Shown here piece by piece: positions 6,401 through 43,400 of a DNA stretch of 64,000 bases. A program made the position numbers and the translations under genes. Every line of letters begins with the position of its first letter. Positions within the stretch are counted from its first letter, which is position 1. A model generated the notes under the pieces. The model worked only from the letters and a program-made list of their open reading frames with translations, was not told the DNA's origin and made no database searches. Source of the DNA: Periplaneta americana (taxonomy: Eukaryota > Arthropoda > Insecta > Blattodea > Blattidae). The stretch covers positions 126,393,914 through 126,457,913 of the forward strand of contig NC_091130.1 of the NCBI RefSeq assembly GCF_040183065.1, written 5' to 3'.

Positions 6401-9400
6401 AGATTAATGCAATGCAGAAGGATACAGCTATCAAATCAGAACAAATGAATAACAGTAAACTTTTCGAAGGGAATGCAAGGGGAGAAAGAAGGAGGGAGGA
6501 TTAAGTGCACACGTTCGATAAAATAATAAACAAACAATAAAACATTTAAACTCTGAAGATTTTGGATTCAATATGCTGTACACCCATTTCGGTTTATGTA
6601 TCTGTGAGGGAAGAATTTATAACTAACAAGCAAACATTCTGATGGGGGCAGATAAAAAAGTTATTTTTTTTTCTTCCACCATGTTGATAATGTCAAAACA
6701 AGTGCTTATACAAATTTTTGCCACTCGAACGCAATTACGAGGCCGTCCAGAAAGTGATTTTCCCTCGAGCCGTTTACACAAAAAAACACAATTGCATGGA
6801 AAGATTTATTGAAATAGATGCAGCAATTGTTGTGCTATTTGTAAACATATCCTCCACTGGAATTGAGATATTAGTCATAACATTATATCAATTTTTGTAT
6901 CCTTGTATTGTAGAAGTCAGCCATCTGGGATCGGAACCAGCATTTGAAAGCCGTCTGCACATCTCTGTCGATCCCATGATATGACAAATGTCTCAATTCC
7001 GGTGGGGAATATGTTGAAAAATAGCTCAACAATTGCTGTGTCTATTCCAATAAATTTTTCTAATGAAATTATGTTTTCTTTTTGTTAAACAGTCCTTGGA
7101 AAACTTATTTTTTACAGCTCTCATAATTGAGGTCGAGTGACCAAAATTTGTATAAGCACTTCTTTTGACATCATTAACATGGTGAAAAAAAAAATTAACT
7201 GTTTTATCTGCCCCCATCAGAATGTTTGCTTGTAAGAGAAAAATTTCCCTTTCCTTACAACAAATTTAAATATAGTAAATTATACGAAAAACAAAATTCT
7301 GTGCAAAAGTTCGATTCATAGTAGTGATACTTTTTTCACATCCACTTGCACACCAAAAGGAATTTTATACATTTACGTTGAAATTGACACAATGACTTTA
7401 AAGGTTTTGGCTTTGGAGATCAACAGCAAATACCCAAAACCCAATGGCTAAGAACATACACAGATAGCTCACAAATGCATGGTTATCCGAATGCAAGAAC
7501 ATAGATATACAGCTGCATCTTCTCCTTTTATAAACCCATCAGATCATACAAAACTGTATTTGATGGAGAAATCGAAGCCATTTGAACAACATTAAACCAA
7601 CTTCTACTGCATCTTGAAAAATTCTCCAAGACTATTATCCTGAGTGATTCAAGATCCGCCATAGAATCAAATTAGTGCAATTGAGTCTGCTGCATCAGTG
7701 GAGATTCATGACTGCCATGACACTGAGGAAACTCAAATTGGCTCAAAAGAAATTTGTATTGCAGTGGATCCCTGGGCATTATCAAATTTCTGGCAATGAA
7801 CAGGCAGATGCATTAGCAAAAAAAGCTGCCATGCTCACTAGTTGCTTGAAATCGGTAACATCTTACCACTCCTCTAAACTCTACATGAAGAAGCAAATGA
7901 AGGAGCAATACCTCATGAGTTTAGAATCAACAACACAACCAAGCCCTGGAAGACTTCCTTACATAGCACACCTGACTGGTCAAGACAAGAAGCTGTTGAG
8001 AAGTTACAGCTACAAACTGGACACGACATTCTTGCCAAACACCTGTATCAGTTAGGGTTATTTCAAACGCCCACCTGCAAGCTCTGTAATCTGGATGAAG
8101 ATATGGACAGGGACTACTTAATGCACTGCCCAGCTCTTTGCAGAACATCCGAGACCGGAAAATATTGGGAAGCCAGGATCAAGATAATGAATCAGTTGGA
8201 CAATTGATGACTTTTTGTTAATGTTCCATGCCATTAGAGAAATAAATAAATATTTACGTTCTTATATTATAAAAGTTGCTTAAATACTAATTAAGGACGA
8301 TTGACCTGCATAACATAATAAAAATATGAGAATATATAAAAGCATTTACTTACTTACTCACAAATGGCTTTTAAGGAACACGCAGGTTCATTCAGTCCTC
8401 ACATTAGCCCACCATCGGTCCCTATCCTGAGCAAGATTAATCCATTCTCTATCATCATGTCCCACCTCCCTCAAATCCATTTTAATATTATCCTCCCATC
8501 TACGTCTCGGCCTCCCTAAAGGTCTTTTTCCCTCTGGTCTCCCAACTAACACTCTATATGCATTTCTGGATTCGCCCATACGTGCTACATGCCCTGCCCA
8601 TCTCAAACATCTGGATTTAATGCTCCTAATTATGTCAGATGAAGAATACAATGCATGCAGTTCTGCATTGTGTAACTTCCTCCATTCTCCTGTAACTTCA
8701 TCCCGCTTAGCTCCAAATATTTTCCTAAGAACCTTATTCTCAAACACCCTTAATCTCTATTCATCTCTCAAAGTAAGAGTCCAAGTTTCGCAACCATACA
8801 GAACAACCGGTAATATAACTGTTTTATAAATTCTAACTTTCAGATTTTTTGACAGCAAACTAGATGACAGAAGCTTCTCAACCAAATAATAACACGCACT
8901 TCCCATATTTATTCTGCATTTAATTTCCTCCCAAGTATCATTTATATTTGTTACTGTTGCTCCAAGATATCTCAATTTTTCAACCTCTTCAAAGGATAAA
9001 TCTCCAATTTTTATGTTTCCATTTCGTACAATATTCTGGTCATGAGACATAATCATATACTTTGTCTTTTCGGAATTTACTTCCCAACCTATCGCTTTAC
9101 TTGCTTCAAGTAAAATTTCCATGCTTTCCCTAATTGTTTGTGAATTTTCTCCTAACATATTCACGTCATCCGCATAGACAAGAAGCTGATGTAACCTGTT
9201 CAATTCCAAACCCTCTCTGTTATCCTGAACTTTCCTAATGGCATATTAAAAGCATTGTGGGATTCAAATCATGTTCTTTCAATAGCATTCCTGCTCTTCA
9301 GTTTACCTCATCTAAGACAATGAACCAACACAGAAAACTAGTATTCTTGTCTCAATATGCTACAAGTAGGTACATTAGAAAGCTCCCTCTGCTGTGTAGG

Positions 9401-12400
9401 AAACAAACTTCGTTTACTATGGTGCTCAGAAAGTTTGGTAATCCTCAATGAAGGTCACACCAATCTGTGAGTGTCAGTTGCTAGTATTACCATCTGTTTT
9501 TCATACTAGGACGATTTCTGAGAATATTCTACTCGCAACAAAGGGAATTTTCTAATGCACTGTACTTTGGAAATTGCAGACTTGTACTTAGGTATTTTTT
9601 GCTGTCAATCATGCTTAAAATCGAAGTGAATGAATTTAGCTATAATTTCACTATAACAAAGTAGTCTAAATGATTGGTTGATTGGCAAACTTACACGTGT
9701 TAAATTACATTAGCAACTGTGGCTTACAGCTGTTTCGGTGCTTCTTCACACCATCCTCAGAGCCTACTAGATCTCGGCGTCATCTCGAACTTCGCTGCCT
9801 GTTGTGGGGGTGCGTTTGCATGTTGAGAAGAGTTGAAAAGTGAAGTCAAATAGTGTGTGTGTTCTGAAATTGATTTGTGTGTTGAGAATTTGATTGGGGT
9901 GTGTTTTGGTGTATGTGTGTATTTCATATTGTTCTAGTGTGTTGAGTTTTTGGTTTTTGGGTTGTATGTGTAGGATTTCCATGTTTATATTTATGTTATT
10001 GTATGTATGGTTACATTAGTTATCTGTTCGGCGTATGTGGATGTATTGTGTCCTCTGGTTATTGCTGCAATGTGTTCTTTGTGGCGTGTTTGGAATGATC
10101 TGCCTGTCTGTCCAATGTAGTACTTGTCGCAACTATTACATGTGAGTTTGTATACGCCTGGGTGGTTGTATTTATTTCTTTGTGTTTTTTGTGTGTTGAG
10201 ATGTCTTTGTAGTGTGTTTTCTGTTCTGTATGCTATGTTGTATATCTGCTTTCTGACTGAAGATGCGATCTCATGTGAGCTTTTGTTTTCATATGTTAGT
10301 GTGATGTATTTCTTGTGTTCTTGTGATTGTGTTGTGTTTTGCGTGTTTTTGTGTTTGTTAAGTTTTTGTTTTGTCTTCCTTATGATGTTGTCTATTATGT
10401 TTGGATTGTAACCGTTTTCTTGTGCTATGTATTTGATTGTGTTCACTTCTTCATTGTAGTGTTGTTGGCTCATGGGTATGTTGAGTAATCTGTGTACCAT
10501 TGTTCTGAATGCAGCATGTTTGTGTTGTATGGGGTGGTTAGATGTGTTGTGTATGTGTGTGGTGGTGGTGGTTGGTTTTCTGTATATTTTGAAGGTGTGT
10601 TTGTTGTCAATTTTTGTTATGGTGATGTCTAGGAAATTTATGGAGTTGTTGTTTTCAAGTTCCAGTGTGTATTGAAGTTTTGGGTGTATTTTGTTTATGT
10701 ATTGGTGTAGTTTGTGTATTTGTCGTTTGTTTCCTTTGTATAGTATGAGTAGCCTATTTTAAGTCTGTGAAGTAATAATAACTATTATTTTATTAAACAG
10801 CAGTACAACTACCATGTTCTGGTGTTCTGTTGATCGGTTTTGTAACTTCTGGAACCTTCTTCTCCGTAGACTGGGGATCTTGTAAACCTAGCCAACCAGA
10901 TGATGACTCTTTATCACGTGTAGGCTGTTGCTTCTTCTCTTCTTCCAATCCAAAGAGTTCAGCTATAACTTTTGCCTTGTTCTGTTTATTCTTGGGCTCT
11001 GGTTCGCTCAGTTTTACATCCTGCTTAGCAGGGGATTCTGTCACGTCACTTTTGAAAATATCAGCCTTCTTTTTCTTATTAGAAAAATCATCATCTTCAT
11101 CCGATAACAAGTCACCCAACGGATCATCAGCATCAAAATCTGGATAAAGGAAATAAACTTTCAGTCACATTCTTGATGTACACCGTCTTTATGTAATGCA
11201 TTGCATTAAACATATTAATAGAAAACAAGTAACTTATTTCAGATTCAACATCGTCATTAAATACAGTGAAGCTTTGATTACACTGAACAACAAGAATTTT
11301 GCTCCGACTTAAAACAATGCGTCCCTTATGGTTTGATGCACGCTGAATCCGAAAATGCATCTCTTTTCATCGTATCACGTAAGGTTTTTAAGGGGAGACT
11401 CCACTGAAAATCATGAAAATTTTCCAAAATATATTTATTGGCTATTTCACTTATTTAGAATTTATATTTTCATACCCCAAATGGATTTAATTCAAATCTG
11501 ATTACAAATATGTTCATTATTTTTTTTAAATTAAAGCTGTAAGGGGACGTGGCATTTAAAGAGATGTCAAAATTATTTTTTCATCAAACAATTCTTTCTT
11601 ACAAATTTCTGATTACAAATTTAGTAACTTTCTGTTCTAAAGTTGGCTCCCTGAAGTTATTAGATAAATGCAGTAGAGGAGAATTTTAACAGTTATGTGT
11701 TACTTAAATATTCATTTTACTTTGAAATCCATTTTTCCGTAAGTTTATTTTTATTGATTCAACACCAACTTTTTTATGCCAGATATTAATCAATCTGTAT
11801 GAAATTTTTACTGCAAGTATTTATGAGTTAGCTGCATGTGTCTATGCATTTATTTTGTAATAAATGCTGATAGTTTATTTTATTAATTTTTCTTTCAATG
11901 AATTATAGGAAAAATAACATTTTCAGAATTTCAAAACAATTTTTGAAAGTGAATAAATGAGATATTTCATCAATTGAATGCATATAAATGTTTCTCTTTG
12001 TCTTGTGAATGTAATCGAAAAAAGGAAGCTTAAAAATTGAGATCTTCTACAAAAAACTTGAATTTGAAAATATTTCTAAAAAATATATATAAAAAAATTA
12101 AGTCAATCAAAAGCCGAAAACATTTGGGAGTTCAAAATTGGGATTTTATTAGTCCTTTACATAATAAACATGCTGTCAAAATTTAGTTGAAAAAAAAATG
12201 ATTAGGAAAAAAGTTGTCGTTTTTAGTGGAGTGTCCCCTTAAGATATACTATGACTTCACTTTTCGATAAGTGCTCCCCCAGGAAACATCGGGCACGGAT
12301 TGGGTGTACAAACCAAAACAAAAGCTAATGCATTTTATGGGTTTATGACTTATTTCCGGTTTCTTATGGTTGCTGACATGTTCTTTTGTACTTATAATAA

Positions 12401-31400: not shown

Positions 31401-34400
31401 CATACTTAGTTGGGGGCATATCTTGATTGTTACTCAGTGTGAAAAGAAAAGCCTTTTCTGATGGGATGTAGTGCCCCTTAGTATTTGTCTTTCCCCATGG
31501 AACATCACTGAATCCTCCACAGATCTCACCTCGGGCTCCCTGAAGTTACAGAACAAAAAATATGAGAATACTTCAGATTGTACCTTAGCTAAAGGAAACT
31601 TTTTTTTCCCTTCCGAAATGCTCTCTTGAACCACACAGTTTTTCCCTCCATACCTCGTAACATAAGTGGAGCGTTAATTTTAATTTATTCAAGTATGAGC
31701 GTTTGAATGGGAATATAATACAGTTTTCAAGATGACATTTTGTCAAAAAATGTCACGTAAATACGGTACAATGTGTGTTCATTGTTAAGATTGGTCAGCT
31801 TTGAAATTCCTGGAAATTCGAAGCTGCCAATTCTTGTCTCCGCACTGCTAGCATCAGCTTCACAGCAACTGCACCTAACACCCCTCTAAACTGAAAATAT
31901 TTGTAAAGTAGACTCAACCTGATATGACGAGAAGGTTGCCGATTGGTTTTTGAATTCCAGTGAGGGGAAGAAAGAGGAAGTGTATTTGTAACTGACTTTG
32001 TTATGTAAAATAATCACATGTTATTAATTATTAATGCTATTTCAGATGCAATTAAATACCATTTCATTTATATCTTTTTCTTAATTATACTTTTTTTCTT
32101 CAGACCCCGTAAAAAAATATAAATAAAGTTTCACTGTATAACATGAGCTTATGCTGGCAACAAACATCATAATTTTAAACATGGAAATAATTAAAAAATC
32201 ACGATTTTAAATTTAAATAACGGAAGATACAAGTATTCCAAAAGTATCTTCTGACAGCAGAAATAAGAATTAATTTAGCATACACCTGCAACAACTTCTA
32301 CATAGGACAGACAGGCAGATCATTTCAACCACGTCCAAAAAACACATCACAGCCATAACAAAACTACAAAACACGTCCACATATGCAGAACACATCACAA
32401 ATGCTAACCATACCTACAGAGACATAAACACAGACATGGAAATTCTACATATTCAACCAAAAAGCCAGAAACTAAACACACTAGAACAATACGAAATATA
32501 TATACACACAAAAACACATCCAAATGCAATTTTCAACACACAACTCAATTTCAGAACATACACACTCTTTGACTCCACATTACACTACACAAACACACTC
32601 CCACAGGAAACACAAACAAAAGGCGCCAAGACCAGCACCAACCAGTTCTGAAGATGGCCCATAACAGGCTGAAACATGTTAACCAGGTACAATAAAATTT
32701 AACACGAAAAAGATATATAATACATATTCGGAAATTAATTTAGTATCTTCTGACAAACACATTTGTTTATCTTGGGTGTGAGAGATAGTGGAACAGCAGA
32801 AAATGAAAAAGCGGATGAACTGGCGAAAAGTGCTGCTGTTTCAAACTTGAATTTCAGTCATACTCTGTGCCTTTATTCATATGCGAAAAGAAAAATAAAT
32901 GAGCACATAGTGAATAGATGGAACAATTAGTGGCTATGCAGCATAAAAGAGTCAGTTACGGGAGAAATTTTTTTTCCATGGGTCGACACCCACTTAAACA
33001 GTAACAAAAGTATACCGGATTTCATATTATGTAATACAATTTTTGTCGGGTCATGGAAAATTTGGCTCTTATTTCGAAAGATTTATATTAGGCTACATCA
33101 GGAAAATGGCTGTATTTGTGACGAATGGCAAATTGTAGGCCACCTTCTGTTTCATTGTCCGGTTTTCAAAAATATGATGCCAATATAGTCTGACATTTAC
33201 ACTATTGTAATGTAATATATCTATATATATTCATAGCATGGTGCGTCCTCAGGTTGCGAATAGAGGAGACAGCCTCCAGATATGGAGGGTAGCTGCGAAT
33301 ATATTGAATAAGCATTTGTGGACAGTCGATAAGGAGTGGTCTTCCATCTTGGGGGTTGGGCGAAGGGCTAACAACCCATCACCGTAAAAAAGAGCTTGTT
33401 ATGAAACTCCAACATAAGCTCAGAATGGGACTGATTCTTTGGCGTGATCACAGCAAAGGAATAAGATGATGTCTGTTATGAGATTTGGTACTTGGCATGT
33501 CACAAGTCTTTATAGAACAGAAGCAAAAGAACTAGCTAGATAGAGAATAGACTTTGTGGGAGTACAGGAGGTTATGTTAGATGAGAATGGCATATCACCG
33601 TTAGGAGATTACTTCTTCTACTATGAGGAAGGAAACAATAATCACCAATTAGGAACAGGATTCTTTATTCATTTATTTTTTTATTTTAGTAGGTTATTTT
33701 ACGACGCTTTATCAACAGCTTAGGTTATTTAGCGTCTAAATGAGATGAAGGTGATAATGCCGGTGAAATGAGTCCGGGGTCCAACAGTGAAAGTTACCCA
33801 CCATTTGCTCATACTGAGTTGAGGGAAAACCCCGGAAAAAACCTCAACCAGGTAACTTGCCCCAACCAGGAATCGAACCCGGGCCACCTGGTTTCGCGGC
33901 TAGATGCGCTAACCGTTACTCCACAGGTGTGGACTCTTTATTCATAAAAGAATAAAATCAGCAGTATAAAAAGGTCGAATTGAACAGTGACAGGTTATCA
34001 TATTTAGTACTTATGGATAGATGGTGCGATATCATAGTTATAAATGCTCACGCCCCTACAGACAAAAAGCAAACATTTGAGATGGGCAGGTCATGTAGCA
34101 TGTGTGGGTGAAACGTAGATGGGAGGATCATATTAAAATGGATTTGAGGGAGATGGGATATGATGGTAGGGATTGGATTAATCTCGTTCAGGATAGGGCT
34201 TATATGAGGGCAGCAATGAACCTCCAGGTTCCTTAAAAGTAATTCGTAAGTAAGTAATGTAATATATAACAAACCACTACTCAATGTTTTCAGAAAAACA
34301 TGTTGCTACAAAGAGTTGTATAATTTTGTATGTTATATATTTAAGAACTTGCAATTATTTCAACTATAGTAGATATGTGTTAATTTTACGAAGCGTAGAC

Positions 34401-40400: not shown

Positions 40401-43400
40401 TTATAGTTGCTATGTTGGCTATACTGCTCTTCACGTCACATGAATCATATGACTGCCATTTAAAATTGTCATAAGGTTATGAAAACTTTTAGTATTTTTT
40501 ACGCTATTATGTATTACTGTATTAGCCTACAATAAATGAACTGATGAATGTACATTACCGTATTCAGCACTAAAAATTAACATTGTACATATTTCAAAAC
40601 TTTATTTTTAATTATCTATATGAAAATTACTAAATTTCAACATGGAAAAAAATGTTTGCGCAGTACAGTGTGTCTTTTCATAACCTATAAATGTATTTTC
40701 CAATTGTGCAAATCTAGTCTTTCAGGTAAGGCTCCCTGTAAAGCAGATTTGAATAATTTCAAGGGAAAAATTGTTCCGGGGCCGGGTATCGATCCCGGGA
40801 CCTCTGGTTGAACGTACCAGCACTCAGCCAACTGAGCTAACCAGGAACTCCACCCGACACCGTCTCAACTTTTCCCTTTATATCCACACAACTCGCGTGG
40901 GCTGACGAAATGCCAGAGACCCACATCGAGTGCACACAATCTCTGTGTGACTTGGAATTGTGGTTTTCTGTTAACATACACAGTGACGTATATATTATGC
41001 AAATCTAGTCTTTCAGGTAAGGCTCCCTGTAAACAGATTTGAATCATTTCAAGGGAAAAATTGTTCCGGGTCCAGGTATCGATCCCGGGACCTCTGGTTG
41101 AACATACTAGTGCTCTGCCAACTGAGCTACCCGGGAACTCCACCCGACACCATCTCAACTTTTCCCTTTATATCCACACAACTCGCGTGGGCTGACGAAA
41201 CGCCAGAGACCCACATTGAGTGCACACAGCCTCTGTGCGACTTGGAATTATTTTCCAATTATCTGGAAAAATCAGTTATCGGCACTGCTTTGTCCCACAG
41301 TTGCCAGATACGAAGAATTCTACTTTATCTATGAAAAATAAGTAAACTAGACTGTTCTACAGAAATAAATGATAAGAATGACAACAAATATTGCCTCTCT
41401 TTATTTTTCAAGGCAGCATAACTTGACCAACCTATAAGTAAAAGTCGCACGTGGTTGATGACACCAGCAAGATGTTGACACACACGAGCACGTTCTTCTT
41501 CAGTCCAGTGGGCTGTGGGTTGAGTGACTCCCGCCTGATATTTAGCCCAATTGAGGACAGCACGCCAGACATCTTCCTCTTCTAATGCCAACTGAAGGTG
41601 TACATGATATTAATTTCTTTATCAATAAAAATTTATAAGCTCAATTTATAATGCAAACTCAATTTTCTTTACACTCCTTATTAACGAATGAATATGCTTA
41701 CTGCCTTGGTAATTATTAAGTTTAATACAATGATAATTTAAATAATTGATTAAATGGCGATCTTACTCGTGTTAATTATGTAAGCATGTGCGGCTTACAG
41801 CTGTTTCGGTGCTACTCGATACCATCCTCAGAGCCTTCTGTGTCTCTGCGTCATCTCAACTTCGCTGCCTATTGTGTAGGTGCGTTCGTGTGATGAAGAG
41901 TTGCGTCAAATAGTGTGTGTGTTCTGAAATTGATCTGTGTGTTGAATATTTGATTAAGGTGTGTTTTAGTGTGTTTGTATATTTCATATTGTTCTAGTGT
42001 GTTGAGTTTTTGGGTTGTATGTGTAGGATTTCCATGTCTGTATTTATATTATTGTATGTGTGGTTGGCATTAGTTATGTGTTCGCCATATGTAAATCTAT
42101 TGTGTCCTCTGGTTATTGCTTTAATGTGTTCTTTGTATCGAGTTTGGAATGATCTCCTGTCTGTCCAATGTAGAAACTGTCGCAACTATTACATGTGAGC
42201 TTGTATACGCTTGTGTGGTTGTATTTATTTGTTTCTACATTGGACAGACAGGCAGATCATTCCAAACTCGATACAAAGAACACATTAAAGCAATAACCAG
42301 AGGACACACTACATCTACATATGCTGAACACATAACTAATGCCAACCACACATACGATAACATAAATACAGACATGGAAATCCTACAAATACAACCCAAA
42401 AACCAAAAACTCAACACACTAGAACAATATGAAATATACACATTAAAACACATCTTAATCAAACACTCAACACACATATCAATTTCAGAACACACACACT
42501 ATTTTACTCGACTCTTCACCACACGAACGCACCCACACAACAGGTAGCGAAGTTGAGATGACGCAGAGACACAGAAGGCTCTGAGGATGGTGTCAAGTAG
42601 CACCGAAACAGCTGTAAGCCGCACATGCTTACATAATTAACACGAGTAAGATCGCCATTTAATCAATTATTTATATTCAAGTGTTAAAAGTAGTGTACGA
42701 AAGATTCAACATGGATAATTTAAAGTCATGTTTATTTGAAGATATAACAACAGACTTTTGTATGGAGGTGTCCAGGTGAAAACTGAGAACTGGGTCTTTT
42801 CTGGGAGTAAAAGATACATTGTACCTCCACTGAACTCTATGCTTCACAACTGGAACGAACTCTAACAGTCTTACATATGGCAGGGGCTGAAGCAGACAAG
42901 GAAGGAGATACCAAAGTATCGCTGTCTTTGAATAATTTCAAGGGAAAAATTGTTCCGGGGCCGGGTATCAATCCCGGGGGCTTTGGCTAGCTAACCAATG
43001 CTCTACCGACTGAGCTACCCAGGAACCACACCCAACATCATCTCAATTTTTCCCTCTGTATACACAAGCCTCAAGTGGGTTGACAAGAAGCCAGAAATCC
43101 AACTTTGAGTACATACAAACTCTGTGTGACTTGAATTGTGGTTTTCTGTTAACGTACCTACAGTAACATTTATATTATGCAAATCTGGCTTTCAGGTATA
43201 CCACAATTCAAGTCACACAGAGTTTGTGTGCACTCAAAGCTGGGTTTCTGGCGTCTTGTCAGCTCATTTGAGGTGTGTGGATATAAAAAGAAAAATTGAA
43301 ACAGTGTCGAGTGTAGTTCCTGGGTAGCTCAGTCGGTAGAGCATTGGTGTGCTAAGCCAAAGATCACAGTCCAACAAAAACTGAAGCTTATTTGTCAGTG

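Follow-up and report, generated by a model that had tools for sequence, protein, structure and literature searches.

A minimal type I hammerhead motif of Penelope-like elements in Periplaneta americana, and a head-to-head insertion with one short and one long end

A 44-nt motif carrying the two core boxes of a hammerhead ribozyme recurs in the 3' regions of Penelope-like elements (PLEs) within a 64,000-nt stretch of the Periplaneta americana genome (contig NC_091130.1, positions 126,393,914 to 126,457,913; hereafter the window), and two of its copies face each other in a mirror-image arrangement. This raises the question of whether the arrangement serves the ribozyme or records the way in which the element inserted. 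The original prediction, made from the sequence alone, favored the former, proposing that an extra U and a loopless stem III leave only a dimer active, and that the array would supply such a dimer. Taking the evidence together, we consider it quite probable that the motif is a minimal type I hammerhead situated at the junction where one PLE open reading frame (ORF) ends and the next begins, and that positions 41732-42724 represent one two-ended insertion event rather than a dimer factory.

The motif was confirmed at all three predicted places, 9721-9764 (minus strand), 41792-41835 (minus strand) and 42577-42620 (plus strand), with equal length, the boxes CTGAGGA and GAA, stem I GGCT/AGCC, and a stem III formed by the 8-nt palindrome ACAGCTGT. 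The order in this group, designated family A, is GGCT-CTGAGGA-T-GGTG-loop-CACC-GAA-ACAGCTGT-A-AGCC. In the plus-strand copy at 42577..42620, which was recognized by sequence pattern and descriptor search in the long-ended arm of the array, stem I GGCT (42577-42580) is followed by the CTGAGGA box (42581-42587), the extra T (42588), stem II (GGTG 42589-42592 with CACC 42601-42604), the GAA box (42605-42607) and the palindrome (42608-42615); the cut is predicted after A 42616, before the stem I strand AGCC (42617-42620). The copy at 41792..41835 belongs to the short-ended arm, and here the expected GGTG/CACC of stem II reads GGTA...CACC, with an A-C in place of the fourth pair. The copy at 9721..9764 lies within an element copy at about 9667-10758. 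The predicted count of three missed a divergent fourth copy, which a descriptor search revealed at 32644..32684 (plus strand), downstream of a second Penelope fragment. This copy, of family B (AGTT-CTGAAGA-T-GGCC-CATAACA-GGCT-GAA-ACATGT-T-AACC), has the core boxes, the extra nucleotide and a palindromic stem III as in family A, with most stem pairs changed and 3/4 of the stem I pairs formed. The exact layout with GGTG/CACC was found twice in the window and in none of 100 shuffled sequences, while three descriptors of different stringency gave 2, 3 and 4 window matches, the four copies being the result of the loosest one, against means of 0.00, 0.01 and 0.06 in 100 dinucleotide shuffles. Because these counts are far above the shuffle means, chance is a poor explanation for the window motifs.

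Hammerhead ribozymes are characterized by CUGANGA and GAA boxes, A15.1-U16.1 and an NUH cleavage triplet. Both boxes, together with A15.1-U16.1 and the triplet, are present in all four window copies and in the representatives of families B2, C and D, the boxes being demanded by the parse itself. Three stems meet at the core, with the open end at stem I, and stem III comprises 2 bp plus the palindrome in a monomer, or 6-8 bp in a dimer; the loopless stem III and the extra U had both been read correctly. Judged by this layout, the 44-nt motif is a minimal type I hammerhead of PLEs, a known kind, here with a predicted cut, and the identity first proposed for it is supported by the sequence.

The ORF remnants beside the motif read as the C-terminus of a reverse transcriptase (RT) followed by a GIY-YIG-like end (17 protein letters read by eye). 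At 42231..42547 (plus strand), a remnant of the GIY-YIG-type endonuclease end, named by eye, has its stop upstream of the hammerhead. A remnant at 9767..10758 (minus strand), consisting of the C-terminal RT part and the GIY-YIG-type end in two reading-frame pieces, ends directly before the 9721-9764 hammerhead and was assigned by eye and by its similarity to L110, a near-full-length relative; a family B endonuclease-end remnant at 32287..32605 (plus strand), with 77-81% DNA similarity to the family A arms, lies upstream of the fourth hammerhead. Pfam gave no meaningful GIY-YIG match for the short window ORFs or for L110, so that this name is given by eye only. L110 itself matched RVT_1 in Pfam (6.4e-16) and carries the motif at its 3' end, and a pattern search upstream of its ORF found no motif. 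Positions 1014-2840 of L110 also weakly matched the antiviral RT Drt3a, whose structure is solved (PDB 9z6y, E 0.00051), and the NCBIfam Drt3a and group II RT models matched there below their cut-offs.

A protein search of the 3.23-Gb assembly (91 contigs; 150 matches listed, 149 of 35355 first-look candidates scored) was also made, and the hammerhead core pattern was present in 4/4 stretches upstream of ORF starts (L113-L116), which were chosen by protein match, one of them belonging to a family whose N-terminal identity is 64%. In L114 and L116 the hammerhead is preceded by endonuclease-end sequence and followed by an ORF start, an arrangement that is the tandem junction known as a pseudo-LTR, so that its position between ORF end and ORF start is seen in two loci besides the window; L113 and L115 begin at the ORF-start junction after oppositely directed sequence. 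The hammerhead is thus found in the pseudo-LTR of an element with an RT (RVT_1 in L110) and a GIY-YIG endonuclease (by eye), and the copies, which occur head to head or in tandem, with short target site duplications (TSDs) and a tail at some 3' ends, are of the Penelope/Poseidon type.

Minimal type I hammerheads of PLEs have reportedly been described by Cervera and de la Pena in 2014 and by Luense, Weinberg and Breaker in 2017. The present motif shares with those described in PMC7761336 and PMC6466107 the type I order, the very short palindromic stem III, the pseudo-LTR position and a presumed dimer action, and the excerpts of these two reports contain no difference that would distinguish it; they also agree with the background assumed at the outset, that hammerheads with a short stem III are established in PLE pseudo-LTRs. 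PAc, the Poseidon element of the lizard Anolis carolinensis, likewise has a hammerhead in its pseudo-LTR (pLTR), its tail is explained by two RT start sites, and both of its target strands are cut and extended, but its main ORF begins at stem II, and here the ORF seemingly begins about 125 nt downstream (PMC11167929). The satellite or retrozyme hammerheads of newt and axolotl share a weak stem III with a palindromic loop (HHR_Amex1) and, in their own case, better cleavage as dimers; according to PMC7229834, however, they sit in 330-350 bp retrozyme repeats with loop-loop contacts, whereas the present ones sit in autonomous PLEs. A search with the Rfam hammerhead families, which had been suggested as a check, gave no match around 42577 at E up to 10, nor in four further loci at E up to 5. 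At gathering level, Rfam also left hammerhead-like strings bearing this extra U unrecognized in 5/5 viral-contig loci (5 tested of 19), and its silence therefore says little. These 19 viral-contig loci (L001-L019) have a T between CTGANGA and stem II, the extra T being demanded by the search pattern; L002, L003, L004 and L010, among others, have clear stems I and III with GTC by eye, and L011 has three hammerhead-like copies in 4.6 kb.

The inverted pair in the window had been described as a "tandem or inverted array" at 41739-42668. It is inverted and head to head, not tandem, and with its target duplication it spans 41732-42724. A 5'-truncated minus arm with a short 3' end (41735..42234) meets a 5'-truncated plus arm with a long 3' end (42231..42720), and about 4 nt at 42231-42234 are common to both. 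The two ends differ by a tail of about 43 nt, located at 42678..42720 (plus strand) and present at long ends only, which contains CAACATGGAT, the likely main ORF start by family C homology (ATG 42711-42713). The last bases of the tail overlap the right copy of an 11-bp TSD, GATAATTTAAA, found at 41732..41742 and 42714..42724 (both plus strand). On the sequence, the mirror-image pair is best read as the scar of one head-to-head insertion made from both ends, with two start points.

The same pattern of ends was found in copies across the genome. Among 85 sampled loci, comprising 53 of family A (queries 42500-42668 and 42617-42720), 30 of family B and 2 of family C, mixed ends, one short and one long, occurred in 47/50 classified head-to-head pairs. 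The genome searches scored the best candidates only (40 of 1282, 40 of 4261, 40 of 402, 149 of 35355 and 150 of 871), with 30 loci excised for each of the first three, and the locus counts accordingly refer to close relatives. A total of 52 head-to-head neighbors was found, two family B pairs being unclassifiable; the count excluded pairs more than 2.6 kb apart (L111) and eight duplicate loci (L039, L041, L080, L086, L088, L090, L093 and L112). The L111 pair, which has 1.6-kb arms and stands outside the 50, also has one long and one short end. The three exceptions to the rule were L049, with one end at 42638, L076, whose partner is uncertain, and L091, a complex locus in which the outermost ends are one long and one short. 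Short and long ends were about equally frequent, with 48 and 49 in family A, where the second query (42617-42720) selects long ends but not their partners, and 19 and 19 in family B, with 5 unclassified; independent choice would therefore give about half mixed pairs. In the stretch examined, 12/53 family A loci and 19/30 family B loci had no head-to-head partner, and the other neighbor arrangements were one tandem and two tail-to-tail in family A, two tandem in family B and one tandem in family C. Direct repeats of at least 8 bp flank 23/31 hand-picked pairs, compared to 8% in mismatched-locus flanks; they are absent in 8/31, and some of the 23 counted are displaced from the boundary or fall within simple repeats (L046, L058, L065). 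Four of the loci (L085, L086, L088 and L090) represent one stretch at four genome places, 97.9-100% alike over 0.9-3.1 kb including flanks, and thus a segmental duplication holding a Penelope copy.

The simplest account of the pairs is target-primed reverse transcription from both cut strands at two fixed sites, followed by joining. The target would be cut on both strands, and each target 3' end would prime reverse transcription of element RNA, one cDNA starting from the short internal start site and the other from the long one, with about 43 nt between these sites; the two truncated cDNAs would then be joined head to head. In PAc, both target strands are cut and extended, and two sites of RT initiation correspond to the tail of the element, though its authors saw no difference between the strands in the site used (PMC11167929). 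In the Penelope literature that we searched, as far as its text was available, no statement of a one-short, one-long rule was found; the 2005-2006 Penelope papers and Craig et al. 2021 were outside that search. The closest description concerns the rotifer Adineta vaga, in which inverted copies with TSDs carry a tail at one of the inverted pLTRs; excerpts of that report call the tail optional and assume self-priming on an antisense template, whereas here the tail is on one end only in 47/50 classified pairs (PMC3846280). The end rule makes the published notion of an "optional tail" more precise and is in keeping with priming from each of the two target strands. It would make dead copies a read-out of the integration reaction, and it predicts different start sites for the two strands.

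It is possible, although we give it clearly less weight, that the head-to-head pairs arose when a single cDNA primed itself on an antisense template, instead of through priming from both target strands. This route was proposed for rotifer Penelope elements from junction palindromes, according to the same excerpts (PMC3846280), and it agrees with our observation that arms are more alike within a pair (96.3% identity, 33 pairs) than between loci (94.3%). The higher identity within pairs speaks against random joining of unrelated arms, and would be compatible with either one or two template RNAs. A copied-back arm, however, gives no obvious reason for short and long outer ends at two fixed sites, as seen in 47 of the 50 pairs, and extension of both strands by PAc (PMC11167929) also argues for priming from both target strands.

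The stems of the hammerhead differ between families in a manner that retains pairing. Across A, B, B2, an older B copy (L025), C and D, 6/8 stem I and II pairs change on both sides with pairing kept, and 44/48 cells are paired, the unpaired ones being, in stem I, the outermost pair of B, B2 and L025, plus one further cell in L025; these six representatives are few, L077 gave no parse, and the parse used for each motif is the best-scoring one with boxes mandatory, which leans to pairing. Changes internal to family B include G-U to G-C in L051 and G-C to A-U in L025. Stem III reads ACAGCTGT, ACATGT or ACGGGCCGT across families, so that the letters differ and the self-complementarity stays (8/9 for ACGGGCCGT). 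The findings that the original prediction had named as counting against a ribozyme include a lack of compensatory stem changes and core substitutions as frequent as the background. The first is contradicted between families, in favor of the motif. The second is what we observed inside family A, where 8/46 copies have core changes and the core sites, at 1.9% per core site versus 1.5% per other site, have no extra protection among the 46 copies compared (L039 and L041 were excluded, as were matches that failed to span the motif). Most of the copies are dead, 5'-truncated fragments that would be expected to drift evenly, and we therefore judged within-family core conservation to be uninformative as a test. 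The motif adds members and covarying families for judging the extra nucleotide and the palindrome.

If two sense copies came within reach of each other, either in a tandem transcript or in two transcripts, their palindromic stem III strands could pair into one 8-bp helix, and the paired copies would then form a double hammerhead cutting after ...CUGUA and before AGCC. Cleavage there would sever one unit's ORF from the leader of the following unit and from that unit's reverse-transcription start sites. From the arm sequences, cut RNA appears to leave no visible mark as a template, because the cut site, 42617, is the first base of none of the 96 arms, 71 of which have a 5' start within the query, and the closest arm begins at 42613; the first query (from 42500) cannot recruit arms that start at the cut site, and only the partner arms and the second query (from 42617) are informative here. 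The PAc hammerhead required protein for cleavage, and its loss left in vitro insertion unaltered (PMC11167929). In line with these PAc mutants that still insert in vitro, our reading is that cleavage, if it occurs, would split tandem transcripts into units and would not be needed for the insertion step. The 5' ends of arms cluster at about 42573-42582, in family A partly through blastn stopping where subfamilies diverge, and this cluster at the motif start may point to an RNA start or the edge of a leader. In families A and B, some short arms (L021, L106, L109, L058 and L075) have their start at GGCT or one or two bases away from it, a possible transcript 5' end, and the ORF-start-bearing arm of L113 (G000:C7:102915880-102916400, minus-strand reading) begins at GGCT, with the first base of the motif.

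We think it unlikely that the motif is kept for some other reason, such as a binding site for element protein or a part of the promoter or leader, with the hammerhead layout a relic that no longer cleaves in this genome. Core sites no better kept than others among copies, the lack of arms beginning at the cut site, the ORF-bearing arm of L113 and the few short arms whose start coincides with that of the motif, like a leader or RNA start, and the independence of PAc insertion from cleavage in vitro (PMC11167929) would all agree with such a relic. Between families, however, stem letters are replaced while the pairing and the positions of the boxes stay, which a protein site or promoter alone would not explain. 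It is also conceivable, though doubtful, that in each insertion two RT events, one on either target strand, are obligatorily paired at different sites about 43 nt apart, with the palindromic stem III holding the templates or start regions together, so that the ribozyme would in part be a dimerization element and its cleavage secondary.

As for the minimal hammerhead itself, folding predictions make the idea of a dimer reasonable. The minimum free energy (MFE) structure predicted for the 42577 monomer, at -11.4 kcal/mol, is not a hammerhead, and the hammerhead fold has -5.7 kcal/mol; in all four window copies the monomer MFE structure lacks the hammerhead fold. The predicted homodimer MFE structure is a double hammerhead for the 42577 and 9721 copies, while the cofold of the 41792 copy keeps stem III and loses stem II, and that of the 32644 copy keeps stem II and the palindrome and loses stem I. 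The stem III palindrome in question reads ACAGCUGU. The dimer energy gain of 7.9 kcal/mol was matched by 125/300 mononucleotide shuffles and is not unusual, and it was dropped as evidence. Dimer action of this hammerhead class is nothing new, and Luense et al. 2017 is said to state in its title that such hammerheads "cleave RNA as dimers". It is already in print for minimal PLE hammerheads in PMC7761336 and PMC6466107. Outside the window, L114 and L116 provide examples of tandem junctions in the genome; no tandem sense hammerhead copies were seen within the 64,000-nt window, the sole pair of which is inverted.

The extra nucleotide, which had been taken as a further sign of dimer action, gives that view no support. 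Stem II is not joined directly to CUGANGA in families A, B, C or D, one nucleotide being added in every copy: T in 46/46 copies of family A, T in 32 and A in 6 of the 38/38 family B copies that have it, T in four copies of family C, and C in L116. Since the letter varies between T, A and C by family, it is a kept spacing and not a kept letter, and we regard it, from these alignments, as a variant of the hammerhead consensus and not as proof of inactivity. That the extra U is present in order to form the main ORF start codon (A9-U-G) is very improbable. CTGANG-ATG does occur in all four window copies, and the main ORF of PAc begins at stem II (PMC11167929), but in these four copies the motif ATG opens just 17, 2, 17 and 13 codons, the long family C ORF appears to begin about 125 nt further downstream of the hammerhead, with a putative start codon at CAAAATGGA in the tail, and the nucleotide is A in 6/38 family B copies and C in L116; together these observations contradict a role as main start codon in these families. 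The least credible proposal, that the inverted array at 41739-42668 itself supplies two motifs that pair into an active dimer, is most improbable, for although the motifs are 741 bp apart they lie on opposite strands, so that any transcript across the array carries just one of them in sense and the other in antisense. Folding of the 993-nt transcript is predicted to give a single hairpin (MFE -726 kcal/mol), with the sense motif paired to the antisense arm.

Several other features were noted in the window. About 120 bp from the insertion, an ORF at 41325-41609 (minus strand) with a sub-threshold BACK match (0.0037) is perhaps a host BTB-Kelch exon, and tRNA matches at 42953-43024 and 41064-41136 (both minus strand; 41.8 and 36.1 bits, respectively) flank the insertion and possibly represent tRNA-derived SINEs. 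At 8388-9245 (minus strand) lies the remnant of another retroelement, with an RVT_1 match of 2.5e-07 in two frames, and at 7648-8055 (plus strand) an RNase H-like fragment (Pfam RNase_H, 5.1e-06).
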